64,000 nucleotides of DNA, from assembly GCA_028287235.1 (NCBI GenBank), contig JAQBQB010000019.1, positions 1 through 64,000 on the forward strand, read 5' to 3'. Below, in pieces: positions 1,212 to 26,746 of the stretch. Positions within the stretch are counted from its first letter, which is position 1, and each line of letters begins with the position of its first letter. The notes under the pieces are model-generated. The model had not been told where the DNA came from. It made no database searches and saw nothing but the letters and a program-made list of their open reading frames with translations. A program made the position numbers and the translations under genes. This stretch comes from Gemmatimonadota bacterium (GTDB lineage Bacteria > Gemmatimonadota > Gemmatimonadetes > Gemmatimonadales > Gemmatimonadaceae).

Positions 1212-1829
1212 ATGGACGATATACGTACTCTGAAGCCCAACCAACTGGACGCGCTGCGCGAGGTGGCGAACATCGGCGCCGGCCACGCGGCCACGGCGTT
1301 GTCGCAGATGGTCGGACAGACCATCATGATCAGCGTGCCCACGATCAACGTGGCGCGCCTCGAGGAGGTGCCCCCGCAGCTCGCCGAGCCGGAGGAGCCG
1401 GTCGCCGCGGTGCTGATGCACATGATGGGCGACCTTACCGGGCGCACGTTGCTCGTCTTTCCGAAGCGCACCGCGCTGCAGCTCGCGGCCATGCTCTGCC
1501 GGCGCGCGGAGCCGGCCGAGGAGTTCGGAGAGATGGAGCAGTCGGCGATCAAGGAGGCGGGCAACATTCTCAGTTCCGCCTACATGAACGCGTTGAGCGA
1601 CTTCATGGGAATGATGCTCCTGCCGTCGCCGCCGAGCCTCGCCATCGACATGTCGACGGCGGTGCTCACCACGGCGTACCTGCAGTTCGGTTCGGACAAG
1701 GACTACGTGTTCTGCGTCGAGAGCGAGTTCCTGATGAGCGACATCGACGAGAAGCTGCGCGGCTTCTTCCTCCTGCTCCCCGATGCGGCGTCGCTGCAGG
1801 CGATTCTGAAGGCCGTCCGTGTAGCCTGA
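1212..1829 (+). CDS. cheC: CheC-type CheY-phosphate phosphatase
   Basis: 205 aa. The protein has the two-fold repeat of CheC, each half carrying the phosphatase signature (D/S)xxxExxN: D13/E17/N20 in the first helix and S111/E115/N118 in the second, so both active sites look intact. In Bacillus and Thermotoga CheC removes phosphate from CheY and forms a complex with CheD, and cheD is present in this same operon. The ATG at 1212 is preceded by GAGG with 5 bp spacing, only 7 bp after cheA; the same frame is open upstream into cheA, but this start fits the family and has the ribosome-binding site. No partner CheY is visible in the window. Confidence 0.92.
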   Translation: MDDIRTLKPNQLDALREVANIGAGHAATALSQMVGQTIMISVPTINVARLEEVPPQLAEPEEPVAAVLMHMMGDLTGRTLLVFPKRTALQLAAMLCRRAEPAEEFGEMEQSAIKEAGNILSSAYMNALSDFMGMMLLPSPPSLAIDMSTAVLTTAYLQFGSDKDYVFCVESEFLMSDIDEKLRGFFLLLPDAASLQAILKAVRVA

Positions 1830-1832: not shown

Positions 1833-4523
1833 ATGGCCCTCACCTCTGAGCGCGATCGCGAGGTCCTTCGCTCGTTCGCCCGACGGATCGATCCGTCGGA
1901 CGCCGGGGCGCACAACAACCTTGGGGTATTGTACTACAACAAGGGGTTGTACGAGGAGGCCGTCGCCGCGTTCATGAAAGCGCTCGAGCTCGACCAGAAG
2001 ATGGAGGTCGCGCAGCGCAACCTGGAGATCGCCTACTTCAACACCGGCTATTACGATACTCGAATACCAGAACTGAAAGAGCGCCTCCGCTCGCGGCCGG
2101 AGGATCGCGAGGCGCGCTGGGAGCTGGGACGCACGTTCTCGTTGCTCGGCCAGCAGGCCGAGGCGGCCGACGAGTTTCGCGCGCTGCTGCAGTACACGCC
2201 GAGCGACGTCGGCGCCCTGCTGCAGCTCGCGCTCGCGGAAAAGCAGGTGGGCGACATCGAGCGGTCGCAGGAGTGCCTGGAGCGGGCGCTCCAGCTCGAC
2301 CCCGATAGCTCGCTGTTGCACTTCACGTTCGGCGAAGTGCTCTACCACCGCGGCCTGAACGAGGAAGCGCTGCGTTCGCTCGAACGCGCCACCGAGCTGA
2401 ACCCCGAGAACCACGACGCGCTCTATCTCATGGGCTTCGTCCTCGGCGACATTGGCCGCCACGAGGACGCGCAGGCGATCACGCGCCGCGCGATCAAGCT
2501 GAATCCCACGCTCTCCCGCGCGCACGCGAACCTGGCGATCGACCAGCAGCGCATGCCGCGTCCCGAGCCCGGCGACGGCGTGAAGCGGGAGCTACAGGTG
2601 ACGGGCGAGAGCCAACTCGCCCGCTACAACCTCGGTCTCGCCTTCCGCAGCAAGGGGTACTACGCCGAGGCACTGCGCGAGTACACCATCGCGCTCGAGC
2701 GCGGCGAGGAGCGCGATCTCGTGCTGCAAGCGATGGCCGAGATGCAGCTCCTGATGCGCCACCCGAAGGACGCGCTTCTCCTCTACGACGAGTTGCTCCA
2801 GCGACAGCCGTCGAGCCCCAAGCTGTGGAACGAGCGCGGCGTGGCGCTCCACCAGCAGGGACATTTCACCGACGCCGAGGCGAGCTACCGGCGAGCGCTG
2901 GAGGCCGAGCCGGCCTACGCGATCGCGCTCAACAACCTCGGCGTCTCGCTCTACCATCGCGGGGCAGTCGACGACGCGGTGGCGGTGTTTCGCACGGCGC
3001 TCGACCAGCAGCCGACGTTCGTCAAGTCGCGCCTCAACCTCGCGCTGCTGCTCAGCCGCGGCAAACGATTCCCGCTCGCCCTCGACACGTTTCGGCAGGT
3101 GTTGAACACCGACCCGGAACATCACGTCGCGTGGAACGGCATTGGGCTCGTGCTCACCGAGCTGCGCAAGTTCGAGGACGCGCGGAACGCCTATGCGCGC
3201 TCCATTCAGTCGCGCCCCGACTTCGCCGAGGCGCACTACAACATGAGCTTCACGCTGTCGCACCTCGGCGATTTCGAGGGCGCGCTGCGCGAGACGAAGC
3301 GCGCCTTGGAGCTCGACCCGTACTACGTCGCGCAGAAGTTCGAGCTGGCGATGGACGTCGAGTACGAAGATCCCGACCTGTCGATTCAGCCCGATCTCGG
3401 CGGCGAGCGGCCGGCCGACTCGTCCATCGCCGACTTCAGCTTCGATCCGCAATCGCTCGACACCCTGTTCACCGAGCTCACGCCGGCGAATGCGCCTCCG
3501 CCCTCCGCGCCGTCGCGGACGATGGATTCGTCGCCGTTCGCCATGGCGACGGACTACCTGTCGAAGGGGCTGTACGATCGCGCCGCGGCGGAGATCAATC
3601 GCGCCATGGCGCGTGGCAACGTGCGCGCCGACGGGCTCGCGATGCTGGGCGATGTATTCGTGAAGCAGGGATTGTTCGGCGAGGCGCTCGAGCGGTATCG
3701 CGAGGCGTTGCGGCTGGAACCGGGGTTGCGGAGCGCGACGATCGGCGAGGCGTGGTCGCTGGTGCGCATCGGTCGCGCGCAGGAGGCGCGACCCCTCGCG
3801 CAGCGCCTGCTCGCCCAGACGCCGAACGACGTCGACGTGTTGATGCTCACGGCCACGGCGTGCGCCGAATCGGGCGACCCGGCGGCGGCGCTGTCGGTGC
3901 TCGAGGCCGCGCGCCGCTGCGAGCCGATGCGCGCCGACGTGCAGCAGAAGATCGGCGACATCGCACGCTCTCTTGGCGACAACGAAGGGGCGATCTCGGC
4001 GTACCGCCACGCGCTTCAGCTCGACCAGGATTTCGCCGTCGTGCGGCTGCAGCTCGCCAAGTTGCTGCAGGCCAAAGGGCAGAACCGCGAAGCCGAGCAG
4101 GAGCTCGTTGGGGCGCTCGACGCGGTTCCGACCTACGCCGAAGCGACGCTCGAGCTGGCGACGCTGCGCCGCCGGCTCGGCCGTGCGGCGGAAGCGCTCA
4201 CCCTGCTGATCGACCTCCTGCACCGCGATCCCTACCACTTCAACGCGCTCATCGCCCTGGGTGAAACGCTGCTGTCGCTGGGACGCAAACGCGACGCGGT
4301 GCTCGCCTTCGCGCGCGTGCTGCGCTTCGATCCGCACCACGTGGGCGCGCTCTTCCACGAAGGCAGTATTTTGTCCGAGCAGCGCCGCTACCGCGACGCG
4401 ATCGAGCGCTGGCAAAAAGTGGTCGATCTCGGCCCGACGACCGACTACGCGCGCCGCGCCCGCCGCGAGATCCGCACGGCGAGCGATCTGCAGGCCATCC
4501 TCGGTGCGCGGAGAAAGAGCTAA
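1833..4523 (+). CDS. Giant tetratricopeptide-repeat scaffold protein
   Basis: 896 aa. Almost the whole length is TPR helices (repeats of the form NNLGVLYYNKGLYEEAVAAF). An acidic, proline-rich linker at about residues 513-566 divides it into two TPR blocks. No signal peptide or membrane segment is evident, so it is probably a cytoplasmic protein-interaction scaffold. It begins 3 bp after cheC and is followed 3 bp later by the PATAN protein, firmly inside the chemosensory/MglA operon. The specific partners cannot be deduced; by position I infer a hub linking the Che array and the MglA module. Confidence 0.85.
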   Translation: MALTSERDREVLRSFARRIDPSDAGAHNNLGVLYYNKGLYEEAVAAFMKALELDQKMEVAQRNLEIAYFNTGYYDTRIPELKERLRSRPEDREARWELGRTFSLLGQQAEAADEFRALLQYTPSDVGALLQLALAEKQVGDIERSQECLERALQLDPDSSLLHFTFGEVLYHRGLNEEALRSLERATELNPENHDALYLMGFVLGDIGRHEDAQAITRRAIKLNPTLSRAHANLAIDQQRMPRPEPGDGVKRELQVTGESQLARYNLGLAFRSKGYYAEALREYTIALERGEERDLVLQAMAEMQLLMRHPKDALLLYDELLQRQPSSPKLWNERGVALHQQGHFTDAEASYRRALEAEPAYAIALNNLGVSLYHRGAVDDAVAVFRTALDQQPTFVKSRLNLALLLSRGKRFPLALDTFRQVLNTDPEHHVAWNGIGLVLTELRKFEDARNAYARSIQSRPDFAEAHYNMSFTLSHLGDFEGALRETKRALELDPYYVAQKFELAMDVEYEDPDLSIQPDLGGERPADSSIADFSFDPQSLDTLFTELTPANAPPPSAPSRTMDSSPFAMATDYLSKGLYDRAAAEINRAMARGNVRADGLAMLGDVFVKQGLFGEALERYREALRLEPGLRSATIGEAWSLVRIGRAQEARPLAQRLLAQTPNDVDVLMLTATACAESGDPAAALSVLEAARRCEPMRADVQQKIGDIARSLGDNEGAISAYRHALQLDQDFAVVRLQLAKLLQAKGQNREAEQELVGALDAVPTYAEATLELATLRRRLGRAAEALTLLIDLLHRDPYHFNALIALGETLLSLGRKRDAVLAFARVLRFDPHHVGALFHEGSILSEQRRYRDAIERWQKVVDLGPTTDYARRARREIRTASDLQAILGARRKS

Positions 4524-4526: not shown

Positions 4527-5360
4527 ATGGCGATCGAAGGACCACTTCGCGAGCTCGGCATCCACGACGTCTTCCAGCTGCTCGACCTGAGCCGGAAGAC
4601 GGGGATGCTGCGCGTGTCGTCCGAGCTTCGGGAGGATGAAGGCGTCGTGCTCTTCGACGGCGGTCGCGTGGTGCAGGCGTCGATCCGCAGCATGGCGATT
4701 CCCACCGAGAGCGGCGCGATCACGCAAAAGGAGATGGAGCGGCAGGCGCGGCTGCACATCGAGAGCGTGGTCTTCGAGCTGATGTCGTGGCGCGAAGGCT
4801 TCTTCTCGTTCGAGGAGCGGTCGCGCGACGAGATGCCGGGCCAGAGTCGTGTCACCGTATCCACCGAGTCGCTCTTGATGGAAGGCGCGCGGCGGATCGA
4901 CGAGTGGTCGCGCATCGCCGACATCGTGCCGAATCTCACCGTGGTGCCGGAGCTCGCGCCTGTGGAAGCGGACCGCGACGGGGCGATGCTCGATCTGCTG
5001 CCGCACGAATGGCAGGTGTTGACGATGATCGACGGTGCGCGCGACCTACGCGCGATTGCCGCGGCTCTGGCGCGCGACGAGTTCGAGATCGCGAAGATCG
5101 CGTACGGTCTCGCGACCACCGGCGTGATCGTGCTGCAATCGGCGCGACGGCTCACGCCGGAATCGGAGCGCATCACGACGAGCGAGTATCTCGCGGTGGC
5201 GGCCACCATGTCGCTGTCCACGGAGCTCGCGGCCGCGCGCGCCGCGGTCGAGCAGTTCCTGCGTTCCTCGCCGAGTGGTCCGGCTGCACCCGAAGCGCGC
5301 GACGCGCTCGATGCGCTCGCACGACTGCAGCGCGTCTTGGAGGCGCGCGCCAATGGCTGA
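4527..5360 (+). CDS. PATAN/DUF4388-domain protein
   Basis: 277 aa. The N-terminus (IEGPLRELGIHDVFQLLDL then KTGMLRV) is the typical opening of the DUF4388 (PATAN) domain, followed by a linker region and a second segment around residues 150-210 (LPHEWQVLTMIDGARDLRAI) like the winged-helix-like tail common in such proteins. PATAN proteins are known or suspected to bind response regulators and modulate motility or gene regulation; the exact role here is unknown. The ATG at 4527 follows the TPR stop by 3 bp, and its own stop overlaps the next start. A second PATAN protein lies downstream at 9546. Confidence 0.75.
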   Translation: MAIEGPLRELGIHDVFQLLDLSRKTGMLRVSSELREDEGVVLFDGGRVVQASIRSMAIPTESGAITQKEMERQARLHIESVVFELMSWREGFFSFEERSRDEMPGQSRVTVSTESLLMEGARRIDEWSRIADIVPNLTVVPELAPVEADRDGAMLDLLPHEWQVLTMIDGARDLRAIAAALARDEFEIAKIAYGLATTGVIVLQSARRLTPESERITTSEYLAVAATMSLSTELAAARAAVEQFLRSSPSGPAAPEARDALDALARLQRVLEARANG

Positions 5361-6162
5361 CGACATTCACGGCTGGAGCGAGGAGCTCGCGCGCGATCCA
5401 TCGAGCTTGGTGTTTCTTCAACTCGGGGAAGCGCTGCGCCGCCAAGGCCAGCTCGAGGTGGCGCTCAAGATCGCGCTGCGCGGTTTGGAACGACACCCAC
5501 GTCACGCCGAAGCGCACGATCTCGTGGCGCGGATCGCCGTGGATCGCCGCGATTTCGCGCGCGCCGTGGAAGAGTGGGAAACCGTATTGCGCATCTCGCC
5601 GTCTCACCTCGGCGCGATGAAGGGGCTGGGGTACATCTCGTTTCAGCAAGGCCGGTTCAACGACGCCGAACGCTTTCTCAACGAAGCGTCGGCGGGCGGG
5701 GCAGGAACGGACGTGGACGCGGCGTTGGAAACCGTGCGCCGATCGTCCGGAAGCATCCCTGTGCCGCGGGTCGGCGACGACCCGGCGCCGGATCCCCAGC
5801 GGCTCTTCGCCGACATTCTCCTCGACGCGGGCCAGACGGCGCTCTTGCTCGACGCGAACGGCTACGTGATGGGCGGGCTCTACCTCGACGGCGACGGGAA
5901 CGACCTTGGGCAAGAGATCGGAGCCCAATTGAGCGGAATATCGGACGAGGTGGTTCGGGCTACCCGTCACCTCGACATTGGCGAATGGAGGTCCATCCTG
6001 TTCGAGACCCACGCCGCCGTGGTTGCCATGGCTCCGGCGGCCGACGGCAGCCTCCTGGTCGTGGCCGCTTCGAAGGCTACACCGCTGGGCTTGCTACGGC
6101 GCCTGCTCGACCGTTGCGCCCAGCGAGCCGCCGAGTGGCTGGGCGCGGGAGGCTCCCGATGA
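5353..6162 (+). CDS. TPR-Roadblock/LC7 fusion protein
   Basis: 269 aa. Residues about 10-120 are TPR-like helices (SLVFLQLGEALRRQGQLEVA), and residues about 150-265 resemble a Roadblock/LC7 fold (LFADILLDAGQTALLLDANGY, then an alternating hydrophobic strand pattern LLVVAASK). Roadblock domains regulate small Ras-like GTPases such as MglA. The start ATG at 5353 overlaps the previous stop by 8 bp; an in-frame upstream extension to 5275 has no support. Its stop overlaps the next ATG as ATGA. The TPR half could recruit the GTPase regulator to the larger TPR proteins of this operon (inference). Confidence 0.65.
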   Translation: MADDIHGWSEELARDPSSLVFLQLGEALRRQGQLEVALKIALRGLERHPRHAEAHDLVARIAVDRRDFARAVEEWETVLRISPSHLGAMKGLGYISFQQGRFNDAERFLNEASAGGAGTDVDAALETVRRSSGSIPVPRVGDDPAPDPQRLFADILLDAGQTALLLDANGYVMGGLYLDGDGNDLGQEIGAQLSGISDEVVRATRHLDIGEWRSILFETHAAVVAMAPAADGSLLVVAASKATPLGLLRRLLDRCAQRAAEWLGAGGSR

Positions 6163-6509
6163 GCAGTCCCTTTACCGCGCTGCTCGAATCCCTCAGCCGG
6201 CAACGTGGCGTGCGGGCAAGCTTGATCGTCTCGGAGAATGACGGGCTCGTGGTCGATGCCAATTTGCGCTTTGGGCAGGACGGCGACCGCGTTGCCGCCC
6301 TGGCGGCGTCGATGTACCGCAAAGCGCGGATGTCGGCGTCGGCCGCGCGTTTGGGCGCCGTCGGTTTCCTCCAGCTCGACGCCGAGCGGGGCCGGATCTG
6401 CGCCGTTGGAGGGCGCGGGGATCTCGTCATCGTCGTCGTCGCGGAACCGGCGGCCAACGTGGGACTCATTCGCGTGGAACTGCTGAAGGCGCTGGACTCG
6501 CTCACATGA
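6159..6509 (+). CDS. Small Roadblock/LC7-domain protein
   Basis: 116 aa, a stand-alone Roadblock/LC7 domain: N-terminal helix FTALLESLSRQRGV, strand pair with a VSENDGLVVDA turn, central helix of the AALAASMYRKA kind, and C-terminal strands GDLVIVVVAE. Such proteins form dimers that act on, or scaffold, Ras-like GTPases. It overlaps its neighbours on both sides by 4 bp (ATGA), implying translational coupling with mglB and mglA. It lacks the SLGLVR signature seen in the next gene, so it is a second, divergent Roadblock protein rather than MglB itself. Confidence 0.72.
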   Translation: MSSPFTALLESLSRQRGVRASLIVSENDGLVVDANLRFGQDGDRVAALAASMYRKARMSASAARLGAVGFLQLDAERGRICAVGGRGDLVIVVVAEPAANVGLIRVELLKALDSLT

Positions 6510-6979
6510 ACATCGCCACGGTGGAGCCGTGGGTCGAAGCGCCGCTGCGCCGGTACGTCGACGACGCGCGGGCGCGGCTCGCGCTGTTGCTCCACACGTC
6601 GGGGCAGGTGGTGGCGCAGGCGGGATTCACGCGTGCGATCGACGTGATGACGGCATGTGCGCTCGCGTCGGCGGTGCACGCGACGTCGGCAGAGCTGGGG
6701 CGGCAAGTGGACGGCCGTCCGTTTCGCGGATTGCACCACGCAGGACCGCAGCGGCAGCTGTACCTGGCGCCCGCCGAGACGGCGCGCGGGGCCTACATTT
6801 GCCTCACGGTGTTCGACGACGAAAGCTCGCTCGGCCTGGTGCGCATGTACTTCGACGAGCTCTGCAAGGAGCTCATGGTCGCGGCGCCGCCGCTCGCGCC
6901 GCTTCGCGAGCCCGCGCTCGCGGTGGACTTCGAGCGGGACCTGAATGCAAACCTCGCCGCGATGTTTGGACGAAACTAG
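6506..6979 (+). CDS. mglB: MglB-like Roadblock protein, putative GAP/partner of MglA
   Basis: 157 aa, close to the length of Myxococcus MglB. The segment TVFDDESSLGLVRMYFDEL closely follows the MglB pattern (VIFDNRTSLGLVRL), preceded by a strand LYLAP, and the C-terminus ends in a charged helix (DLNANLAAMFGRN), as MglB does. MglB is the homodimeric GTPase-activating partner of the polarity GTPase MglA and sets front-rear polarity in gliding or twitching cells. Here it lies 30 bp before mglA, giving the usual mglBA order. The ATG at 6506 overlaps the preceding stop by 4 bp. Family assignment rests on motif and neighbour evidence. Confidence 0.78.
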   Translation: MNIATVEPWVEAPLRRYVDDARARLALLLHTSGQVVAQAGFTRAIDVMTACALASAVHATSAELGRQVDGRPFRGLHHAGPQRQLYLAPAETARGAYICLTVFDDESSLGLVRMYFDELCKELMVAAPPLAPLREPALAVDFERDLNANLAAMFGRN

Positions 6980-7009: not shown

Positions 7010-7618
7010 GTGTCCCTAGTCAACTACGCCACCCGCGAGATCACATGCAAGATCGTCTATTACGGACCCGGTCGGTCCGGAAAGACGACGAACTTGCATT
7101 ACATCTACGGGCAGGTGCCGGAGGATCGAAAGGGGAAGATGGTGTCGCTGGCGACGCAGACCGATCGCACGCTGTTCTTCGACTTTCTGCCGCTCGACCT
7201 GGGAATGATCTCCGGCTTCACCACCAAGTTTCAGCTCTATACCGTGCCCGGCCAGGTCTACTACCAGACGACGCGGAAGCTCGTCCTCCAAGGGGCGGAC
7301 GGCGTCGTGTTCGTGGCTGACAGTCAGGCGCGGCAGCTCGAGGAGAACATCGAGAGCTTCAGAGACCTCCACGCGAACCTTGCCGAGCAGGGGATCGAGG
7401 CGCGGACGGTGCCGCTCGTGATCCAGTACAACAAGCAGGATCTTCCGCCCGATCTCATCCTCAGCGCGCACGAGCTGTCGGACGCGTTGAACTTTCGCGG
7501 CGTGCCGGAATTCGCCGCGGACGCGCTGCACGGCCCGGGCGTGTTCGAGACGCTGCGCTCGATCTCCGAGGTCGTATTGAAGCGGCTGAGCGCGGGCGCT
7601 ACGGCGGGTTCGAGGTAG
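7010..7618 (+). CDS. mglA: MglA-family Ras-like GTPase
   Basis: 202 aa. The N-terminus (NYATREITCKIVYYGPG) matches MglA closely. The P-loop is GPGRSGKT at residues 19-26, followed by the TDRTLFFDFLPLDLG switch region, the TVPGQVYYQTTRK G3 segment, GADGVVFVADSQ, and the guanine-specificity motif NKQD. MglA-GTP marks the leading pole and directs type IV pilus or gliding machines. The start is GTG at 7010, 30 bp after mglB. The next gene begins 5 bp after its stop. Identity is secure; whether the organism glides or twitches cannot be judged from this window. Confidence 0.94.
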   Translation: MSLVNYATREITCKIVYYGPGRSGKTTNLHYIYGQVPEDRKGKMVSLATQTDRTLFFDFLPLDLGMISGFTTKFQLYTVPGQVYYQTTRKLVLQGADGVVFVADSQARQLEENIESFRDLHANLAEQGIEARTVPLVIQYNKQDLPPDLILSAHELSDALNFRGVPEFAADALHGPGVFETLRSISEVVLKRLSAGATAGSR

Positions 7619-7623: not shown

Positions 7624-9546
7624 GTGCTCGTCGACTCGCGGCTTCGCTTCGACAACTTCGTCGTCGGCTCGGCCAACCGCCTTGCCGTGGCGGCCGCGCG
7701 CGCGGTGGCGGATACGCCGGGCACCGTGTACAACCCGCTGTTCATGTACAGCAGCTCGGGGCTGGGAAAGACCCATCTCATGAGCGCCATCGGCAACCAG
7801 GTGGCGCAGAAGCGGAAGGACCTCGTCGTCGACCTGGTGACGCTCGACGATTTCGTGCAGCAGCTGCACGAAGCCATCGCCGCGGGCGAGACGGAGAAGT
7901 TCCAGGAGCGCTATCTGCAGATCGGCGTGCTCCTGATCGACGACATGCAGTTCCTGACCGGGCACCGCGAGACGCAGACGGAGCTGCTGCGCATCTTCAA
8001 CGCGCTCACGGCCGACGGCCGGCAGATCGTCATGACCAGCGACCGTCCGCTGTCGGAGATCGCCGACGTGGACGAGCGGCTGATCACGCGCCTCGCGGGC
8101 GGGTTGATCGTCGACATCGGCGCGCCCGATTATGAAACTCGCATGGCGATCCTCAAGGCCAAGTGCGAGGAGCGCGGCGTGCGCTTTCGCGGCGGGGTGA
8201 TCGACGAAGTCGGTCGCCTCGAGTTCAAGAACGTGCGCGAGCTGCAGGGAGCGCTCAACCGGCTGATCGCGTTTCAGACGCTCGGCGGCGGACAGGTGGA
8301 CCCCGAGGCGGTGGTGTCGATCCTCGGCGACCTCGCGGAGCAGCGCGCGCGCACGAACCCGCCGCGCGCGAGCGGCGAGTTCGCCAACTTCCTCACCGAC
8401 ATCTCGCTGGCCGTGGCGCACCACGTGGAGCAGTGGAAATCGCGGCTCAACGACGGCATCGCATACTGGAGCGGCGAGGGGTATCGCACCGGGATCCTCG
8501 AGCGGGTCCTGCAGGATCCGACGCCGCCCACGAGCGTGGAGTCGGTGCTGCGTGAATTCGAGGGCACGGTGTCCAAGCTGCGCGACCTCGAGCGCCAGCT
8601 GCTGCGCATCGACAAGGCGCTCGCGGCGCACGACGCGTTTCGCGATCCCGATCGCCTCGACGAAGCGGAGCAGCTGCTCGAGCGCGCACTGCGCACGTCG
8701 GCGCCGCCGCCGGGCCCGTCGGCGTCGTTCACGCGCGCGGGCTTCGAGGTGGGTGCGAGCAACCAGCTCGCCGTGCGCGCGGCGGACGCGATCGTGGCGG
8801 TGCCGGGCAGCCGGTACAATCCGTTGTTCATCCACGGCCCGAGCGGCGTCGGCAAGACGCACTTGATGAACGCCATCGGCAACGGGCTCATCGACGCGAC
8901 CGGGGAAACCGGCGGCGTGGCGTGCGTGCCGGCGCAGATGTTCGTGGACGAGCTGATCGGCGCGCTGCAGGAGGGCACGGTGGACCGGTGGCGCGCGCGC
9001 TACCGCCACGCGGGCGCGCTGCTCCTCGACGACGTGCAGTTCGTTGCCGGCAAGGAGCGCACGCAGGAAGAGCTGTTTCACGTCTTCAACGCGCTGTACG
9101 CCGACGGCAGGCAGCTCGTCTTCGCCAGCGACCGTCCGCCGCGCGAGCTGTCCGGCCTCGAGGAGCGGCTGCGGTCGCGCTTCGAGGGCGGGCTCGTGGT
9201 GCAGATGCAGTCGCCCGACCGCGCGCTGCGCGAGCGGCTGTATGACCGTTTCCTCAAGGACCTGGGCGTCGAGCCGACGAGCGAGATGTTGACGTATCTC
9301 GCCGATCGCGCGGTGGCGAGCGTGCGCGAGATCATCGGCACCGCCAATCGCATCGTGGCGTCCGCCGAGGTGAAGGCCGTGGCGGTGACGGCGAGCTTCA
9401 TTCGCGCCGAGCTGCAGCCGGATGACGGCGAAGTGCTGCGCGCGGCGGCCATGCGCACGGCGTCGGACACGTTCTTCCTCGACGGCGAAAAGATCGTGTG
9501 GCAGTGGCCCGACGCGGCGACGCGGCTGGTCGAGGAGCTCCGCTAA
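7624..9546 (+). CDS. Tandem DnaA-like AAA+ ATPase without DnaA domain IV
   Basis: 640 aa with two DnaA domain-III-like AAA+ modules. Module 1 (about residues 5-220) opens with FDNFVVGSANRLAVAAARAV and has a P-loop SSSGLGKT at 43-50, Walker B LLIDD at 103-107, sensor-I-like MTSDRP, an arginine-finger-like RLITR and sensor-II NVRELQGALNRL. Module 2 (about 370-590) has a canonical P-loop GPSGVGKT at 405-412, Walker B LLLDD at 466-470, ASDRP, RLRSRF and a degenerate sensor II. Between them is a helical linker of about 130 residues. The DnaA DNA-binding domain IV is absent, so this is not the replication initiator. GTG start 5 bp after mglA; stop overlaps the next gene (TAATG). The role is unknown; context suggests a nucleotide-driven component of the Che/MglA system. 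Confidence 0.85.
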   Translation: MLVDSRLRFDNFVVGSANRLAVAAARAVADTPGTVYNPLFMYSSSGLGKTHLMSAIGNQVAQKRKDLVVDLVTLDDFVQQLHEAIAAGETEKFQERYLQIGVLLIDDMQFLTGHRETQTELLRIFNALTADGRQIVMTSDRPLSEIADVDERLITRLAGGLIVDIGAPDYETRMAILKAKCEERGVRFRGGVIDEVGRLEFKNVRELQGALNRLIAFQTLGGGQVDPEAVVSILGDLAEQRARTNPPRASGEFANFLTDISLAVAHHVEQWKSRLNDGIAYWSGEGYRTGILERVLQDPTPPTSVESVLREFEGTVSKLRDLERQLLRIDKALAAHDAFRDPDRLDEAEQLLERALRTSAPPPGPSASFTRAGFEVGASNQLAVRAADAIVAVPGSRYNPLFIHGPSGVGKTHLMNAIGNGLIDATGETGGVACVPAQMFVDELIGALQEGTVDRWRARYRHAGALLLDDVQFVAGKERTQEELFHVFNALYADGRQLVFASDRPPRELSGLEERLRSRFEGGLVVQMQSPDRALRERLYDRFLKDLGVEPTSEMLTYLADRAVASVREIIGTANRIVASAEVKAVAVTASFIRAELQPDDGEVLRAAAMRTASDTFFLDGEKIVWQWPDAATRLVEELR

Positions 9547-11168
9547 TGGCCATTCGCGGAAGCCTCAAGGAGGCCAGTCTCCCCGACGTGCTCCAGCTCC
9601 TGGCGATGGGCAAGAAGACCGGCTGCTTGAGCGTCACGCATCGCGCGAGCTTCGGCTACATCTACTTCGACAAGGGCCGCATCTGCTACGCGTCGATCGT
9701 CAACCGGCGCGACCGGCTCGGCGACATGCTCGTCAAGAACGCCATCATCACTCAGGCGCAGATCGACACGGCCGTCGCGATGCAGGACAAGCGGCGCGAC
9801 AAGCGGCTCGGCGAGCTGTTGGTGGAGATCGGCGCCCTGTCGCTCCAGCAGCTGCACGATGCGATCAACGTGCAGATCCAGGAAGCGGTGTATTTCCTCT
9901 TCACCTGGAATCAAGGCACGTTCAACTTCGAGGCGGACGTCGCGCCCGATGCGCACGATCACGTCGTGTCGATCAATCCGGAGTCGCTGCTTCTCGAGGG
10001 CGCGCGTCGCGTCGACGAGTGGGGCCTCGTCGAGAAGAAGATTCCGACGTTCGACATCGTCTTCGAGATGGACCGGGCCAAGGCGATGTCGAGCGAGGTG
10101 GAGCTGACGGAGGAGCAGCGCTCCGTGCTCGAGCTCGTGGACGGCACGCGCGACGTGCAGGGCATCATCGACGCGTCGGGCCTCGTGGAGTTCGAGGTTG
10201 GCAAGGCGCTCTACGGATTGGTGTCGACGGGGTTCATCCACCGGATCGGCAAGAGCGCGGCGGTCGCCGCGCCGGCCCTGTCCGAAGGGCGGGTCGAGGA
10301 GCACCGAAACCTGGGCATCGCCTTCTACAAGACGGGGATGCTCGACGAGGCGCTGCGCGAGTTCCGTCGCGTGCTCGAGCTGCGCGCCAACGATGCGACC
10401 GGACGCTTCTACGTCGGCCTCGTGTTCGCGCGCCAGCACAAATGGGACGATGCCGCCGCGGCGTTCGCCGAGGCGGGCGCGCAACCCGGTGCGAAGATGG
10501 CCGTGTTTCACAATCTCGCATACGCCTACGAGCAGCAGAACCGCTATGACGAGGCGCGTGCCGCGCTCGACGAAGCGATGCGCCGCGGGGGAGCCAGCGA
10601 CGCGCGCGTGCAGACGTCGCTCGGCGCCATCAACCTGCTCGTCGGCGATCTGCCGGCCGCGGCAACGGCGCTCACCGCCGCGCGCCCGCTGTTCGGGAAG
10701 AAGCCGCCGACGGCGGCCTGGTTCCATTACATGGCGTTGACCGCCGCGCTGATGGGCGACACGCGGCGCGCGGTGACGATTCTCAACGAGGGCGCCATCG
10801 CGCATCCACATGCGGCGGTGTTGCTCAACAACCTCGGCGGGGTGCTGGAGCGCAGCGGCGCGTATGACGATGCGCGCGCCGCCGTGGAGCGCGGCATTCA
10901 CGAAGACGCCGCCGTCCCGCAGCTTCACAAAAACCTCGGCGACTTGCTCTATCGCGCCGGCCGATACGACGACGCCCTCGAGTCGTACCTGCGCGCCACG
11001 AAGATGAACGCCGCGCTGGGCGGCGACGTGTACCTGAAGCTCGGCAACATCCGCCTCCGCCGGCAGGAGCGCGACGAAGCCGTGCGCTGCTGGGAGCGCG
11101 CGTTGGAGCTCGATCCGGACAACGCCATCGTGCGCACCAACCTCGAGTCCGTTCGGCAGGTGTATTGA
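9546..11168 (+). CDS. PATAN/DUF4388-TPR protein
   Basis: 540 aa. Residues 1-60 form a PATAN/DUF4388 opening (IRGSLKEASLPDVLQLLAM, KKTGCLSV), and about residues 60-210 hold the associated helical region (ITQAQIDTAVAMQ; SLQQLHDAINVQIQEAVY). From about residue 250 to the end there are TPR units. No signal peptide is seen. It starts inside the stop of the double DnaA-like gene and its own stop overlaps cheR, so the three are translationally coupled. It resembles a fused version of the separate PATAN and TPR proteins upstream, suggesting an adaptor role between the receptor/kinase side and the GTPase/ATPase side (inference). Confidence 0.8.
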   Translation: MAIRGSLKEASLPDVLQLLAMGKKTGCLSVTHRASFGYIYFDKGRICYASIVNRRDRLGDMLVKNAIITQAQIDTAVAMQDKRRDKRLGELLVEIGALSLQQLHDAINVQIQEAVYFLFTWNQGTFNFEADVAPDAHDHVVSINPESLLLEGARRVDEWGLVEKKIPTFDIVFEMDRAKAMSSEVELTEEQRSVLELVDGTRDVQGIIDASGLVEFEVGKALYGLVSTGFIHRIGKSAAVAAPALSEGRVEEHRNLGIAFYKTGMLDEALREFRRVLELRANDATGRFYVGLVFARQHKWDDAAAAFAEAGAQPGAKMAVFHNLAYAYEQQNRYDEARAALDEAMRRGGASDARVQTSLGAINLLVGDLPAAATALTAARPLFGKKPPTAAWFHYMALTAALMGDTRRAVTILNEGAIAHPHAAVLLNNLGGVLERSGAYDDARAAVERGIHEDAAVPQLHKNLGDLLYRAGRYDDALESYLRATKMNAALGGDVYLKLGNIRLRRQERDEAVRCWERALELDPDNAIVRTNLESVRQVY

Positions 11169-11983
11169 TGCTGGAGCAGTCGCAGGGAGATTTTCAGGAG
11201 CTGACGCGGAAGATCTCGGTCGAACGGGGCTTCGGTTGCGCGAGCTACAAGGAGAAGTGCTTGCGCCGCCGGATCGCGGTGCGTATGCGCGCTCGTGGCG
11301 TGCACACGTACACCGACTATGCGCAGATCCTGGACGACGACATCGGCGAGTACGACCGGCTGCTCGACGCCTTGACGATCAACGTCACCAAGCTCTTTCG
11401 CAACTGGGACGTCTACGCGTCGATGGCGGCGAACGTGATTCCCGAGCTCTGGCACCGCGAGACGGCGACGATCGAGGTCTGGAGCGCCGGCTGTTCATCG
11501 GGCGACGAGCCGTACTCGCTCGCGATCCTGTTTCACCGCTATGCGGCCACGAGCGGGATGCTGCCGCAGCTCGGCCGCGTGCGCGTGCTCGGCACCGACA
11601 TCGACCGCCAGTGCCTGCTGGCCGCCGAGCGCGGGGAGTTTGGCGAAGGCGACTTCACCGATACACCGGACGATCTCCGGCGTCGATACTTCAGTGCAAC
11701 GGCGCCGTTCGGCGTCGCCCCGGCGATTCGCCCCATGGTCCGCTTCGAGCGCCGGGACCTGTTGAGCCAGGCGCCGCCGCCCGGACAGCACGACCTCATC
11801 GTCTGTCGGAACGTCATGATCTACTTCGATCGCGAGACGCAGGAGCGTCTGTTCGAGAACTTTTATGACGCGCTCGCGCCGGGCGGCTTTCTCGTGCTCG
11901 GAAAAGTCGAGACGCTGCTTGGACGTGCGCGCGCCCGTTTCGCACCCGTCGACGCGCGCGAGCGCATCTTCCGCCGCCTATGA
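11168..11983 (+). CDS. cheR: CheR chemoreceptor methyltransferase
   Basis: 271 aa. It has the N-terminal CheR helical domain (CLRRRIAVRMRARG) and the SAM-binding methyltransferase domain with VWSAGCSSGDEPYSLAI, the acidic DIDRQCL strand end and CRNVMIYFD. CheR methylates glutamates on chemoreceptors using S-adenosylmethionine for adaptation. The ATG at 11168 overlaps the previous TGA by one base; a TTG one codon earlier is an alternative. Its stop overlaps cheD by 4 bp. No receptor gene is visible within the window, so its substrate is encoded elsewhere or upstream. Confidence 0.95.
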   Translation: MLEQSQGDFQELTRKISVERGFGCASYKEKCLRRRIAVRMRARGVHTYTDYAQILDDDIGEYDRLLDALTINVTKLFRNWDVYASMAANVIPELWHRETATIEVWSAGCSSGDEPYSLAILFHRYAATSGMLPQLGRVRVLGTDIDRQCLLAAERGEFGEGDFTDTPDDLRRRYFSATAPFGVAPAIRPMVRFERRDLLSQAPPPGQHDLIVCRNVMIYFDRETQERLFENFYDALAPGGFLVLGKVETLLGRARARFAPVDARERIFRRL

Positions 11984-12486
11984 GCGATCCCATTCAAGCC
12001 ACGATCGCGCCCGAGATTCGCGTCAAGGTCGCCGACTACGCCGTCGCGGCGTCGGGTACGATCGCGACGATCGGCCTCGGCTCGTGCGTCGCCATCGTGC
12101 TGTACGATCCCGACGTGCGCGTGGGCGGGCTCGCGCACGTGCTGCTGCCGAACGAAGCGATGTCGCGCGACAAGTCGAATCCGGCCAAGTTTCCGACCAC
12201 CGCCGTGCCGCTGGTCCTCGAGGAGATGCGGCGCCTCGGTGCAATCGTGACGCGCGTGCGCGCCAAGATCGTGGGGGGCGCGAGCATGTTCGGGAATCTC
12301 ATTCCGCCCGGCGGGATCAACATCGGCGAGCGAAACGTGACCGCGGTGCGCGAGGTACTGGCGGACGCGAACGTCCCGATCGTGGCCGAGGACACGGGCA
12401 GCGACTACGGGCGAAGCGTGTACCTGTTCTTGGGCGACGGCCGCGTGGAAGTGCGCTCGCTGCGCAAGGGATCGCGTGTCCTCTGA
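11980..12486 (+). CDS. cheD: CheD chemoreceptor glutamine deamidase
   Basis: 168 aa. The catalytic arrangement of CheD is intact: T30, C36 in GLGSC and H53 in LAHVLLP, with the same spacing as the Thermotoga enzyme, followed by the KIVGGASMFG motif. CheD deamidates receptor glutamines and also binds CheC, whose gene is at 1212, so the CheC-CheD adaptation loop is complete in this operon. The ATG overlaps the cheR stop, and the 3' end overlaps cheB by 11 bp. Cytoplasmic, no signal sequence. Confidence 0.95.
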   Translation: MSDPIQATIAPEIRVKVADYAVAASGTIATIGLGSCVAIVLYDPDVRVGGLAHVLLPNEAMSRDKSNPAKFPTTAVPLVLEEMRRLGAIVTRVRAKIVGGASMFGNLIPPGGINIGERNVTAVREVLADANVPIVAEDTGSDYGRSVYLFLGDGRVEVRSLRKGSRVL

Positions 12487-13555
12487 CGGCGCGACTCTCC
12501 CGCGGGTGCTCATCGTCGACGATAGTGCGTTCATGCGCCGCATGGCGTCGCAGATCGTCGAAGGGTCGGGGGAGTTCGCGGTGGCGGGAACGGCGCGCAA
12601 CGGCGTCGATGCGCTGAAGCAGATCGAAGCACTGCAACCCGACATCATCACGCTCGACGTGGACATGCCGGAGATGGACGGTCTCACGGCGCTGGGCCAC
12701 ATCATGAGGGAGTCGCCGCGGCCCGTGGTGATGCTCAGTGCCGGCACGACGCACGGGGGACAGGAAGCCACGTTGCGTGCGCTGGAGCTCGGAGCGGTGG
12801 ACTTCGTGCTCAAGCCGTCCGGATCGATCAGTCTCGATCTCGTGCGCATCGAGGATCGTTTGATCGCGGCGCTGCGCGCAGCCGCGGGCGCGAACCTCGC
12901 GGGGCTGCGCGCGTTGCCGCGCCGCTCGCTCGGCGATCCGACGCGTCCGGTCGCGATGGTGTCGCGCGCCACGCGTGCCGTGGTCATCGCCTGCTCGACA
13001 GGCGGCCCACGCGCGCTCGCGGCGATCGTTCCGCAGCTTTCCGCAACGCTCGCCGCGGCGGTGCTCGTCGTGCAACACATGCCCGCCGGTTTTACGAAAA
13101 GCCTCGCCCTTCGCCTCGATCGCACCAGCCCGCTGGACATCCGTGAGGCGGAGGAGGGGGAGCCGGTGGTCCACGGGCGCATGTACATCGCGCCCGGTGG
13201 ATTTCACATGAGCGTTCGCGACGCCGCGGGTGGTCCGACGATCGCCCTCGACACCACGCCGCCGCTCTGGGGCGTGCGGCCCGCGGCCGACGTACTGTTT
13301 CATTCGGCCGCGACGGTTTTCGGCGCGTCGACCGTGGCTGTCGTGCTCACAGGCATGGGCCGCGACGGCGCCGCTGGCACGCGCGCGATTCGCGACGCCG
13401 GCGGCCTCGCCGTGGTGCAGGATCGCGAGACCGCGACGATTTTCGGTATGCCACACGCTACGCTGCTGCACGCCGGAGCGGATCGGGTCACGCCCCTTGG
13501 CGACGTGGGTGCCACGATCTCCGAGCTGGTCGACGCGGTGCACCATGTTCCGTGA
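12476..13555 (+). CDS. cheB: CheB receptor methylesterase
   Basis: 359 aa. An N-terminal receiver domain has the acidic pair D15/D16 and phosphoacceptor D61 (TLDVDMPEMDG). A C-terminal methylesterase domain has S174 (ACSTGGP), H201 (VQHMPAGFT) and D297 (GMGRDGAAG), the full catalytic triad. CheB, activated by CheA phosphorylation, removes methyl groups from chemoreceptors and opposes CheR. A GTG at 12476 is used, overlapping cheD by 11 bp; the 3' end overlaps the first cheW by 11 bp. Confidence 0.95.
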   Translation: MSSDGATLPRVLIVDDSAFMRRMASQIVEGSGEFAVAGTARNGVDALKQIEALQPDIITLDVDMPEMDGLTALGHIMRESPRPVVMLSAGTTHGGQEATLRALELGAVDFVLKPSGSISLDLVRIEDRLIAALRAAAGANLAGLRALPRRSLGDPTRPVAMVSRATRAVVIACSTGGPRALAAIVPQLSATLAAAVLVVQHMPAGFTKSLALRLDRTSPLDIREAEEGEPVVHGRMYIAPGGFHMSVRDAAGGPTIALDTTPPLWGVRPAADVLFHSAATVFGASTVAVVLTGMGRDGAAGTRAIRDAGGLAVVQDRETATIFGMPHATLLHAGADRVTPLGDVGATISELVDAVHHVP

Positions 13556-14491: not shown

Positions 14492-15335
14492 CCGACTCGT
14501 CGACGAGCTTCGCGCGCAACGGAGCGCGCTGGCGGCGCGACTCGAGGCACCGAATGGAGCGAAGGAGCTGGACGCGCTGAAAAGTGAGATCGGGTCGCTG
14601 TTCAAGTCGGTCGAGCTGGAGCTGCACGACCTCGCGGCGCTCAAGGACGACGTGCTGCAGCTCGTGGAAAAATGGAAGGCGGTGAAGACGGCGCAGCCGT
14701 CGTTGGCCCCGGCGTTCATCGGCGACAAGCCCGTGGTGCACGCCGACCATCTCGGTGCGTCGACGTTCATCGAGAAGGGCTGGGGAAAGATTTCGGCGGG
14801 CGACTATGACGGCGCCGAAGAGGCCCTGAACAAGGCGCTGCAGCTCTCCCCCAACAATCCGCAGGCCGAGTCGCTGCTCGGCTGGGCGCTGATGCTGCAG
14901 GACAAGTTCGACGACGCGCTGTTGAACTTTCAGAAAGTGCTCGTGCGGGAGCCGCAGAATGCGCTGGCGCGAATCAACGTCGGGTACATCTGCCTCAAGA
15001 AGAAGATCTTCGGCGAGGCGATCGAGCATCTCTCGCGCGCGATTCGCCTCGACAACGACAAGAAGGCCACGCTCTACGCGCACTTCTATCTCGGTCTCGT
15101 GTATCTCGAGCGAGACATGTTCGAGGACGCGCAGACCTTCTTTCAGAAGACGCTGGCGCTCGGCCCGAATTTGATCGAGGCATATTACGAGCTGGGCCGA
15201 ACGTATTGGTTCAATGGCCAGCGGGACGAGGCGATCGCCACGTGGCAGGCTGGATTCGCCGCGAACAAGTTCAACCCGTGGGGAAAGCGCTGCGCGGACG
15301 TCTTGAAGACAGTGGAGGAGGGCGGGGAGCCCTGA
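14484..15335 (+). CDS. Coiled-coil/TPR protein of the che-mgl operon
   Basis: 283 aa starting at GTG 14484, which overlaps the cheW stop by 8 bp; the same frame runs open upstream inside cheW without support. Residues 1-60 form a likely coiled coil (ALKSEIGSLFKSVELELHDL). Residues about 90-275 are TPR repeats (KGWGKISAGDYDGAEEALNK, LGLVYLERDMFEDAQTFFQK). No signal peptide. It is a cytoplasmic interaction module by appearance. It is the fourth TPR-bearing protein of the operon, after those at 1833, 5353 and 9546. Confidence 0.75.
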   Translation: MADRLVDELRAQRSALAARLEAPNGAKELDALKSEIGSLFKSVELELHDLAALKDDVLQLVEKWKAVKTAQPSLAPAFIGDKPVVHADHLGASTFIEKGWGKISAGDYDGAEEALNKALQLSPNNPQAESLLGWALMLQDKFDDALLNFQKVLVREPQNALARINVGYICLKKKIFGEAIEHLSRAIRLDNDKKATLYAHFYLGLVYLERDMFEDAQTFFQKTLALGPNLIEAYYELGRTYWFNGQRDEAIATWQAGFAANKFNPWGKRCADVLKTVEEGGEP

Positions 15336-16333
15336 TCGCTCGACGCTGGGAGCTGGTCGCTCGTAGCTGCCTTGTCGTGCTGCTCGTTCTCGGCGCACGA
15401 TCCGTACGCGCCCAGACCGACGCGCCGGAGCGCATCGACCGCGGTCGCTTCACGGCCGTGTTCTATCCGGCCGAGCGCGCGCTGGCCACCTCGTTGCTCG
15501 ACGACGCGGTGCGCGCCGACAGCTTTCCCGGCCTGCCGCGCCCGCGCGAGCGCGTGCTGCTCGCCGTGGCGCCCGACCGCCGGCGGTTTCGCGAGTGGGT
15601 TGGCCCCGAGGCGCCGGAGTGGGGCGCGGCGATCGCGTTCCCGGAGTCGCACCGCATCGTGATGCAGGGTCGGTCGGCGGGGTCGGACGCCGGCAATCCG
15701 CACGAAGTGTTGCGGCACGAGCTCGCGCATCTGGCGCTGCACGAATATCTGGGCGATCTGCCGCCGCGCTGGTTCGACGAAGGGTACGCGAGCTACGCCG
15801 CGCACGAATGGAATCGCGACGACATGGTATCGGCGAACCTCGCGCTCGCCGTGCGTGGAACGCCGACGTTCGCGCAGCTCGACGAACGATTCGGCGCCGG
15901 GGCAACGAGCGCGCAGAGCGCGTACGCGCTCGCCTACCGCGCCGTCGTGGACCTGGCGGGCCTCGACACGACGCACGGCCTATCACGGTTCTTTGAACGA
16001 TGGCGCGCCGAGGGAACGATGGACCGCGCGATGCGCTCGGCGTATGGACTCACGCTCGCCGGCTTCGAGCAACGTTGGCAGCAGCGCACGCGGCGGCGGT
16101 ATGGCGCACTCGCGTTGATGGGCGACGTCACCATTGGCGGCCTGTTCATCGTGATCGTGATCTTTCCGCTGTTTCTCGCCCGCCGGCATCGGGACCGGGT
16201 GCGCATGGCCGCGCTCGTCGCGGCGGACGAGGCCGCCGAGCGAGCGGCGCGCGCGAGCGCGATCGAGGCATTGCTGCGCGGGGACGATGAGACTGATTTT
16301 GGGGATGGGCCGCCATCGGCGCCCTCATCTTAA
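15332..16333 (+). CDS. Membrane-anchored gluzincin (peptidase MA-like) protein
   Basis: 333 aa if started at CTG 15332. The frame has no ATG, and its only other plausible initiators are a TTG deep inside the previous gene (15206) or a GTG inside the signal peptide. From CTG the protein opens with a complete signal peptide (IARRWELVARSCLVVLLVLG then ARSVRAQ). The CTGA overlap with the previous stop copies the ATGA overlaps used throughout this operon. The mature part has HELAH followed by WFDEGYASY, i.e. HExxH plus a downstream Glu, as in gluzincin zinc peptidases. A transmembrane helix (FIVIVIFPLFLA) near the C-terminus is followed by a basic cytoplasmic tail. Last gene of the operon; substrate unknown. 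Confidence 0.7.
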   Translation: MIARRWELVARSCLVVLLVLGARSVRAQTDAPERIDRGRFTAVFYPAERALATSLLDDAVRADSFPGLPRPRERVLLAVAPDRRRFREWVGPEAPEWGAAIAFPESHRIVMQGRSAGSDAGNPHEVLRHELAHLALHEYLGDLPPRWFDEGYASYAAHEWNRDDMVSANLALAVRGTPTFAQLDERFGAGATSAQSAYALAYRAVVDLAGLDTTHGLSRFFERWRAEGTMDRAMRSAYGLTLAGFEQRWQQRTRRRYGALALMGDVTIGGLFIVIVIFPLFLARRHRDRVRMAALVAADEAAERAARASAIEALLRGDDETDFGDGPPSAPSS

Positions 16334-18580: not shown

Positions 18581-19479
18581 CAGGCCTGTTCTTCTTCGCC
18601 GGGCAAACGCGCCACGTGCACCCAGAGATCGCGCGGCCGCGCGCGGTAGGTGAGCCGCTGCGCGTTCGACGTCTCACCGTCGACGTTCACGGCCATGGGC
18701 TCGCGCGCCTCGATCGTCACCGATCGTACTTGCGCGTAGTGCACGCCTTCCTCGCCGACATGCTCGCCGCGCTTCACCTTGAACACCGTGCGCGCGAAGT
18801 CCTTGCGCGACATTCCCTCGACGACGCACAAGTCGAGCAGGCCGTCGGTGGCCGACGCCATTGGCGTGACCATGGTGCCGCCGCCGGTGGATCGGGTAAG
18901 GCCCACGGCGAACATGAGGAACTCGCCCTCGTATTCGAAACCGTCGGCGGTGAACTTCGCGTACGTGGACTGGAGGTCGGCGAACTTGCGCATGCCGCTG
19001 ATGGCGTACGCCAGCGAGCCGAGGGATTCCTTCGCTTCGGCCGGCGTGTCGGCGGTGGCTTCGGCGCCCACGCCACCGATCGACACGTTCAGAAACCGGC
19101 GCCCGTTCAGCGACGCGGTGTCGAGTCGCCTGGGCTTGCGTTGGAGGATAACATCCATGGCATGATCGGCGTCCGCCGGTATGCCCACCTGTCGCGCAAA
19201 ATCGTTCGCCGTTCCGAGGGGAATGATCCCGAGCGGCACGTCATAGCCATCCAGACCATTCACGACTTCATTGAGCGTTCCGTCGCCGCCGGCGGCGGCA
19301 ACCACGTCCACCCCGCGCCGGGCGAACTCCGTCGCCAGCGCGGCGGCTTCGCCCGCTTCGAACGTGGCTCTCGCCTCGACGAGATGGCCCTTGTCGCGCA
19401 CCCAGCTCACGAGGTGCCGCACGTCGGAGCGGTCGGCGCGCGCGCCGTGGACGATCAGCGCAATGTGCTTGGAAGGCAT
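18580..19479 (-). CDS. YegS/DgkB-family lipid kinase
   Basis: 299 aa. It has the diacylglycerol/sphingosine kinase catalytic motif AAAGGDGTLNEVVNGL, the substrate segment GIIPLGTANDFARQVG and the C-terminal domain with DGLLDLCVVEG and NVDGE. Such soluble enzymes phosphorylate lipids such as diacylglycerol or phosphatidylglycerol with ATP. The start is the ATG read leftward from 19479 (MPSKHIALIVHG); an upstream in-frame extension of 29 codons would run through the start of rsmH and is not supported. Its start codon overlaps that of rsmH on the other strand by 2 bp. Confidence 0.85.
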   Translation of the reverse strand: MPSKHIALIVHGARADRSDVRHLVSWVRDKGHLVEARATFEAGEAAALATEFARRGVDVVAAAGGDGTLNEVVNGLDGYDVPLGIIPLGTANDFARQVGIPADADHAMDVILQRKPRRLDTASLNGRRFLNVSIGGVGAEATADTPAEAKESLGSLAYAISGMRKFADLQSTYAKFTADGFEYEGEFLMFAVGLTRSTGGGTMVTPMASATDGLLDLCVVEGMSRKDFARTVFKVKRGEHVGEEGVHYAQVRSVTIEAREPMAVNVDGETSNAQRLTYRARPRDLWVHVARLPGEEEQA

Positions 19480-20413
19480 GTCGCTAAATAACGCATACCA
19501 CGCGCCTGTGCTCGCCAGCGAGGTCACCGAGCTGCTGCGGGGGTGCGAACGCGTGCTCGACGGCACCCTCGGCGGCGGCGGCCATAGCGCGGCGCTGTTG
19601 CACGCCGGCGTGCGAACGGTGATCGGCGTGGATCGCGATCCCGACGCCTTGGTCGCCGCGTCCGCGCGGCTGCACGACTTTACCGAGGCAGGCCGCTTCT
19701 CGGCGGTGGAATCGAACTACGCGGCGATCGACGAGCTTCCGTCGCTCGAGGGGATGTCGTTCGACGGCATCCTTCTCGACCTCGGAATCTCGTCGCACCA
19801 GATCGACGACGAGCAGCGTGGATTTACATTCCGTCTCGGCGCGCGGCTCGACATGCGCATGGGCGGCGAGAACGACGTCGCGGCCGACGCCGCCGGAATT
19901 CTCAACCACGAAGACGAAGCGACCCTGACGAACATCTTCAAGGACTACGGTGACGAGCCCAAGGCGGGCCGGCTCGCGCGCGAGATCGTACGCCGCCGCG
20001 GGAACCGACCGTTCGAGACGAGCGACGATCTCGTCGGCGCGATCCGCGCGGTGCTCGGCGCGCGCAGCGGGTCGGGGGACTTCGCGCGGCTCTTTCAGGC
20101 AGTGCGCATCGCCGTCAACGACGAGCTGTCCGGCCTCGTTCGCGCGCTGCCGGCGCTTCGCGACCGACTGACGCCGGGCGGCACGCTCGTCGTCATCGCC
20201 TACCACTCGGGAGAGGACCGCATCGTCAAGAACGCCTTCCGCGACTGGAGCTCGGCGTGCGTCTGTCCGCCCAAGCACCCGTTCTGCACCTGCCGCGGCG
20301 TGGCGCTCGGTACGACGGTCACGCGCCGCGCGCGCATCGCCTCGGAAGACGAAGTCATTCAGAACCCGCGCGCTCGCAGCGCCAGGCTCCGCGCATGGCG
20401 AAGCGCGCCGTGA
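19478..20413 (+). CDS. rsmH: 16S rRNA (cytosine1402-N4)-methyltransferase RsmH (MraW)
   Basis: 311 aa. Conserved N-terminus YHAPVLASEVTELL, SAM-binding DGTLGGGGHSAALL, DLGISSHQIDD, FRLGARLDMRM and the characteristic AYHSGEDRIVKNAF, plus the late cysteine cluster CVCPPKHPFC. RsmH methylates C1402 in the ribosomal decoding site. It opens the division/cell-wall cluster as is usual, but no mraZ precedes it. The ATG at 19478 shares two bases with the divergent lipid-kinase start; an ATG 5 codons upstream (19463) is the alternative. The 3' end overlaps ftsL by 19 bp. Confidence 0.95.
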   Translation: MSLNNAYHAPVLASEVTELLRGCERVLDGTLGGGGHSAALLHAGVRTVIGVDRDPDALVAASARLHDFTEAGRFSAVESNYAAIDELPSLEGMSFDGILLDLGISSHQIDDEQRGFTFRLGARLDMRMGGENDVAADAAGILNHEDEATLTNIFKDYGDEPKAGRLAREIVRRRGNRPFETSDDLVGAIRAVLGARSGSGDFARLFQAVRIAVNDELSGLVRALPALRDRLTPGGTLVVIAYHSGEDRIVKNAFRDWSSACVCPPKHPFCTCRGVALGTTVTRRARIASEDEVIQNPRARSARLRAWRSAP

Positions 20414-20727
20414 GCTCGGGCCGCCGCGGGCGGTCGCTCATCGCCGTGCTGCTTGTTGGTTTCGTCCTGGTGACCACGGGCGTCATTGCTCGCAGAGTGC
20501 GAGGTCTCCAACAGCAGCGGGAGATTCGCGATTTGCAGCGGACGCGCGATGCCCTCGACGCGGAGCGTATGCGGCTCGACGGCGCGATTCGCGACGCGTC
20601 GAGCCGCAACCGGCTGCAGCCGATCGCCGAGCAACGTTTGAACATGCACATTCCCAAGCCGGAAGAGCAGGTGTTTCTGAAACGCAGTCCGGTCCCCGCA
20701 GCCCGGCCGCCGCATGATTCGCTCTAG
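20395..20727 (+). CDS. ftsL: FtsL-like division protein
   Basis: 110 aa: short basic cytoplasmic tail, one membrane helix (SLIAVLLVGFVLVTTGVIA), then a coiled coil rich in Arg/Leu (LQQQREIRDLQRTRDALDAE) and a tail ending at PPHDSL. The topology, length and position between rsmH and ftsI are those of FtsL, which links FtsQ/FtsB to FtsI-FtsW. Sequence conservation in this family is low, so the assignment rests on topology and synteny. It overlaps rsmH by 19 bp and ftsI by 14 bp. Confidence 0.82.
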   Translation: MAKRAVSSGRRGRSLIAVLLVGFVLVTTGVIARRVRGLQQQREIRDLQRTRDALDAERMRLDGAIRDASSRNRLQPIAEQRLNMHIPKPEEQVFLKRSPVPAARPPHDSL

Positions 20728-25581: not shown

Positions 25582-25594
25582 ACCCTGCTTCTCC

Positions 25595-26737: not shown

Positions 26738-26746
26738 AATAGAGTC

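Follow-up and report, generated by a model that had tools for sequence, protein, structure and literature searches.

The stretch of DNA analysed here (the window) is 64,000 nucleotides from a Gemmatimonadota genome, G000, and near its start it carries a chemosensory operon whose genes all lie on the forward strand. The operon opens with cheA, truncated by the contig start (68..1204), and a CheC/CheX phosphatase gene (1215..1829), both recognised by Pfam. The protein encoded at 1833-4523 within the operon, 896 aa and nearly all TPR repeats, keeps its position class-wide. There follow genes for a DUF4388 (PATAN) protein (4527..5360; PF14332, 93 bits), a TPR and Roadblock/LC7 protein (5350..6162; PF03259, 26.3 bits), a small roadblock-like protein annotated by reading, whose position is conserved in relatives (6159..6509), and an MglB-like Roadblock/LC7 protein (6506..6979) whose matches to PF03259 (19.2 bits) and to the MglB model both fall below cut-off. 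Next come mglA, encoding a Ras-like GTPase of the che-type paralogue (7010..7618; an Arf family match and small_GTP), the gene that is the subject of this report (7624..9546), and a gene for a DUF4388 (PATAN)-TPR protein (9546..11168; PF14332, 127 bits, plus TPRs). After these come cheR (11165..11983; Pfam), cheD (11980..12486) and cheB (12476..13555), the last two identified by curated family models. Further downstream, by reading, a cell-wall and division cluster of mra-mur-fts type with an rsmH-like ORF first occupies 19271-36605. The DUF4388-TPR protein has a helical insertion in its PATAN domain (aa 57-110; 9714-9875) that holds a twin RLGxxLV repeat matching NF053729, the NCBIfam MshE-related cyclic-di-GMP-binding motif (44.6 bits, cut-off 38); the repeat is kept class-wide and is absent in G009 and G011, two genomes that also lack the ATPase modules described below.

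The gene of interest encodes 640 aa from a GTG start codon at 7624, and the third-position GC of its reading frame is 0.93. Its TAA stop (9544-9546) overlaps the ATG of the DUF4388-TPR gene (9546-9548) in the sequence TAATG; mglA ends in TAG at 7616-7618, leaving a gap of 5 nt. Coupling by overlapping codons, proposed in an earlier sequence-only reading of the locus, therefore holds downstream but not upstream. A whole-genome Pfam scan finds Bac_DnaA twice in the frame, at 7633-8115 (184.4 bits) and 8728-9201 (176.1 bits), and the full protein scores 353.8 bits against the same family. Bac_DnaA_C, the domain IV model, is absent from the Pfam matches of the protein, and in the AlphaFold model a linker-like segment and a short tail form the C-terminus in place of domain IV. 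These results bear out the original description of two DnaA domain III-like modules in one chain that lacks domain IV. AlphaFold predicts two AAA+ modules (pLDDT mostly 80-95) with a helical segment between them and a disordered-looking tail; linker and tail are low-confidence predictions, and at a pTM of 0.42 the modules are predicted well singly while the model does not fix their mutual arrangement. In a fold search the top match was domain III of Bacillus DnaA (8bv3; E 2.5e-22, about 40% identity over 234 columns). Matches to p97-type double-AAA folds, from rank 12 onward, had an rmsd of 17-22 Å and were set aside as reflecting two generic AAA+ folds, not kinship.

Module 1 (aa 4-238; 7633..8337) was delimited by Pfam, AlphaFold, fold match and residue alignment, and module 2 (aa 366-600; 8719..9423) by Pfam, AlphaFold and residue alignment. 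The motifs of module 1 are a P-loop SSSGLGKTH, Walker B LLIDD, sensor 1 SDR, Arg finger R156 and sensor 2 R205; those of module 2 are a P-loop GPSGVGKTH, Walker B LLLDD, Arg finger R519 and sensor 2 R568. In the module 1 P-loop, Ser replaces the first Gly in the window protein, and Ser or Ala is often found there among 43 proteins of families f1-f3 (f1-f6 and f9 denote families of the window's class). Both modules show a dN/dS of about 0.1-0.3 within the window's genus, and this low ratio, together with close homologues in most of 59 related genomes, places the ORF far beyond chance.

Two further parts of the protein had been overlooked. The modules are not consecutive, as first described: a conserved helical domain of about 115 aa lies between them (aa ~250-362; 8371..8709), with four predicted helices and profile matches across Gemmatimonadota. 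Searches for relatives of the linker gave nothing credible in Pfam (best E about 0.01, matches scattered), among PDB sequences (best E 0.3) or among PDB folds (best E 3). After module 2 comes a conserved C-terminal tail, FFLDGEKIVWQWPDAATRLVEELR (the last ~22 aa, aa 619-640; 9478..9543). In an alignment of 79 homologues from seven families its consensus is EKxVxxWPxxxxRLIEExR, with the Trp present in 78/79 proteins, the Pro in 69/79 and a Glu of the final EE pair in 73/79.

How does this protein relate to DnaA and its kin? It shares with DnaA (PF00308, TIGR00362) the domain III AAA+ fold, here present twice, and with it Walker A and B, the Arg finger, sensor 2 and the spacing of the initiator-specific region. 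It differs in having two modules, a unique linker and tail, and neither domain I nor domain IV, and in sitting in an mglA/PATAN/che operon alongside a separate dnaA: the true, single-domain dnaA of this genome lies on another contig (G000:C9:54242-54724, 232 bits). A maximum-likelihood tree of AAA+ domains confines module 1 (28 rows, 79/99), module 2 (24, 97/100) and DnaA (13, 100/94) each to one side of a branch, so the modules are old lineages in their own right, not recently copied from the genome's dnaA. Against the DnaA equivalog model the protein does exceed the cut-off of 344, with 515 bits, but only because two modules add up; annotation pipelines may consequently label it "replication initiator DnaA". 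Hda/HdaA is likewise DnaA-domain-III-like and lacks domain IV, but the window protein has two modules, the extra linker and tail and no replication context, and it falls short of the Hda cut-off (TIGR03420, 162.3 vs 194.8). An N-terminal sliding-clamp-binding motif was not recognised by reading alone; the AAA+ domain begins at about residue 4. The DnaC/DnaI loaders and IstB belong to a related AAA+ subfamily and give weak HMM matches, all far below cut-off (for example DnaI, 60.9 vs 228, and IstB, 98.6 vs 200), and their helicase- or transposase-binding N-terminal domains are not seen here. Loss of a DnaA ssDNA-contact residue in module 1 was dropped as a distinguishing feature, since the same position varies among true DnaA proteins. 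By its sequence, then, this is a DnaA-domain-III protein, but it is not DnaA, Hda, DnaC or IstB.

The family is conserved class-wide. Of 298 Gemmatimonadota genomes, 176 match the linker profile (A1); they represent 86 of 119 genera and belong to families f1-f6 and f9. The same profile has no match in 199 genomes from the phylum of an Acidobacteria record. Full-length searches recover homologues in most of the 59 genomes of the order; the nearest named record with one is a Gemmatimonadaceae genome, and the best rows from a plasmid collection held only ordinary-looking DnaA matches. Gene order is almost fixed in f1-f4 and f9: cheA, cheC, TPR, DUF4388, TPR-roadblock, roadblocks, mglA, the tandem gene, DUF4388-TPR, cheR, cheD, cheB, cheW. 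In these families mglA is immediately upstream in nearly all judgeable loci, with G008 and G258 (no adjacent mglA) as the exceptions; in f6 it lies 47-1353 bp upstream of a single-module gene. The DUF4388-TPR gene, by comparison, is immediately downstream in every judgeable locus, including all 12 from f5, where the pair stands alone, without che genes or che-type mglA. Linkage to both mglA and PATAN is thus conserved across genomes, f5 being the exception in which only PATAN-TPR remains. Because f5 keeps the pair without che or che-type mglA, DUF4388-TPR is the constant partner, and not MglA or the chemoreceptor array. In one genome (G231, locus L217) the tandem-type protein and DUF4388-TPR form a single ORF of 1051 aa, in a metagenome-assembled genome in which the fusion may be an assembly effect. 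A 1002-aa frame at L213 resembled a frameshifted contig and does not enter the fusion count. The placement of a tandem form in a polarity and chemosensory operon is therefore a class-wide conserved feature, but the linkage to mglA and che is not universal.

In the one f5 locus that was fully read (L211), the pair comes after ileS- and rluD-like genes. Also by reading, similar-looking peptidase-like membrane proteins are encoded after the window operon (15206-16333) and after this f5 pair (L211:12090-13202), and this shared neighbour suggests that the f5 arrangement is the window operon minus its che and mgl genes. The MglA of f5 genomes is always the other paralogue. In the window's genome that second mglA (G000:C28:39763-40239, locus L157) adjoins a roadblock-like gene; by reading, genes resembling pgsA and cinA lie downstream. 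MglA of its type occurs in all f5 genomes searched and in most relatives without che-type mglA. An apparent TGA inside the f5 MglA proved to be the normal gene stop, past which the alignment merely extends.

The ATPase modules themselves form a natural series. Most of the 43 f1-f3 proteins keep the motifs of both modules intact: the Walker A Lys occurs in 43/43 (module 1) and 42/43 (module 2), the first Asp of Walker B in module 1 in 43/43, and the Arg finger in 41/43 and 42/43; for the sensor 2 Arg the counts are 41/43 and 30/43. The residues expected for ATP-dependent self-assembly are thus present in both modules, in line with the switch-, filament- or ring-like action first envisaged, with Walker A and the Arg finger nearly invariant. 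Beyond this core, module 2 has lost its lid in several f1 proteins and in the f4 proteins, and its P-loop is gone in 11 of 11 readable f5 proteins, leaving a pseudo-ATPase. Families f6 and f9 have a single module that groups with module 1, and the module 1 P-loop is retained wherever module 1 is intact, f5, f6 and f9 included. G021 is without module 2 and G020 is reduced; G019 and G258 retain linker and tail only. In G009, G011 and G012 the slot between mglA and DUF4388-TPR is filled by a peptide of ~60-90 aa that combines EFxxFLxDI, from the first linker helix, with the tail. The tandem arrangement, which had seemed the essential feature, is accordingly dispensable, given that single, pseudo and no-ATPase forms fill the same slot. 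Because the peptide-only forms keep the tail without the modules, the tail is the part retained longest and the ATPases are optional. Among f1-f3 proteins only that of G008 has an altered module 2 P-loop Lys (Arg), and G008 also lacks the upstream mglA. The module 2 P-loop may therefore be tied to che-type MglA, with two independent co-losses (G008 and f5); these two cases alone, set against one f4 counterexample (L192, where the P-loop is lost and MglA kept), make the link suggestive only.

DnaA domain III assembles with ATP through its Arg finger, and the known roles of DnaA-type AAA+ domains are those of replication initiators and their helpers. A literature search on DnaA-like proteins in MglA operons and on MglA in Gemmatimonadetes yielded no description of the tandem protein, which agrees with the sequence-only reading that such a form is undescribed in a polarity or chemosensory context. 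It is a real, conserved family without a description in the literature searched, and a known kind of AAA+ protein in an unexpected pathway.

Work in other systems offers a possible frame. The PATAN protein PixE binds PilB1 (PMC7690835), MglA-GTP binds a TPR effector that positions PilB (PMC7519303), and PATAN genes are at times found near MglA genes (PMC4316618). The Myxococcus MglA effectors SgmX, FrzS and SopA and the cyanobacterial PixE occupy the pathway place proposed here for the tandem protein: upstream a polarity GTPase or a chemosensory system, downstream the motor of the pilus, and as partners TPR and PATAN proteins. None of them is described as a DnaA-type ATPase; the tandem protein would be an extra AAA+ component. 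The window's genome encodes a PilB over its family cut-off. There are 13 matches to TIGR02538 (PilB/GspE-type ATPases) in this genome, one of them, on contig C23, over cut-off.

Given that the modules vary, that peptide forms exist and that G231 carries a fusion, the core of the protein appears to be an adaptor tied to PATAN-TPR, with the ATPases as a regulatory layer. The reading we favour, tentatively and at slightly less than an even chance, is that the gene encodes an ATP-gated adaptor of the MglA/PATAN-TPR branch that clusters its effector to steer surface motility; the always-downstream PATAN-TPR gene, the G231 fusion and the tail-bearing peptides in the same slot are among the points in its favour. 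The helical linker and C-terminal tail would be the core that docks onto the DUF4388(PATAN)-TPR protein encoded downstream, and the two AAA+ modules would self-assemble with ATP through an Arg-finger interface, as in DnaA domain III but without DNA. The assembly would cluster or release the PATAN-TPR effector and, through module 2, MglA-GTP, and by this route Che output and MglA polarity could reach the machine that drives surface motility, probably PilB, the ATPase of the type IV pilus. We infer from these patterns that the protein binds PATAN-TPR and MglA, forms ATP-driven oligomers and acts on pili; the type IV pilus as target is a best guess, borrowed from other phyla. A more specific version, which we consider rather doubtful, is that a duplicated DnaA AAA+ engine was put to new use, independently of DNA, as an ATP switch with two sites that governs cell polarity and surface motility, module 1 running PATAN-TPR effector assembly and module 2 reading MglA, and was later trimmed in some lineages to a docking peptide of ~60-90 residues.

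Three other explanations were considered. The protein could instead be an ATP-driven remodeller or exchange factor of MglA (acting in loading, GDP/GTP exchange or recruitment), with PATAN-TPR merely its operon neighbour. That proposal fits the near-constant upstream mglA in f1-f4 and f9 and the finding that module 2 loses its P-loop in the absence of che-type MglA. It is at odds with f5, which keeps the protein although che-type MglA is missing, with G008 and G258, where the gene has no mglA beside it, and with G009, G011 and G012, which retain che-type MglA without any ATPase; we judge it unlikely. An Hda-like role, in which the modules bind the AAA+ domain of DnaA and link the start of replication with polarity or surface contact, is very unlikely. 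Since each module has a true DnaA domain-III fold and an Arg finger, a mixed assembly with DnaA is chemically possible; the missing domains I and IV, the sub-threshold Hda score, the separate grouping from DnaA in the tree, the constant context of PATAN-TPR, mglA and che without replication genes, and the lineages that dispense with the ATPases all point the other way.

It is also improbable that the protein is a non-catalytic scaffold in which the DnaA-like folds act purely as structural spacers or as surfaces that bind partners, with ATP hydrolysis irrelevant. The decay of module 2 (a pseudo-ATPase in f5, without its lid in several proteins of f1 and f4, missing altogether from f6, f9 and G021) would be expected of such a scaffold; the nearly invariant catalytic residues of both modules in f1-f3, purifying selection on both in the window's genus and the module 1 P-loop kept even in f5, f6 and f9 would not.

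If the ATP-gated adaptor reading is true, the filament chemistry of DnaA would be re-usable in signalling, here on an MglA/PATAN chemosensory adaptor across a class of soil bacteria, and bacterial polarity control would gain an ATP-driven step. The natural series, in which proteins carry two active modules, one active and one pseudo, one only or none, offers a ready-made experiment on what each ATPase contributes.
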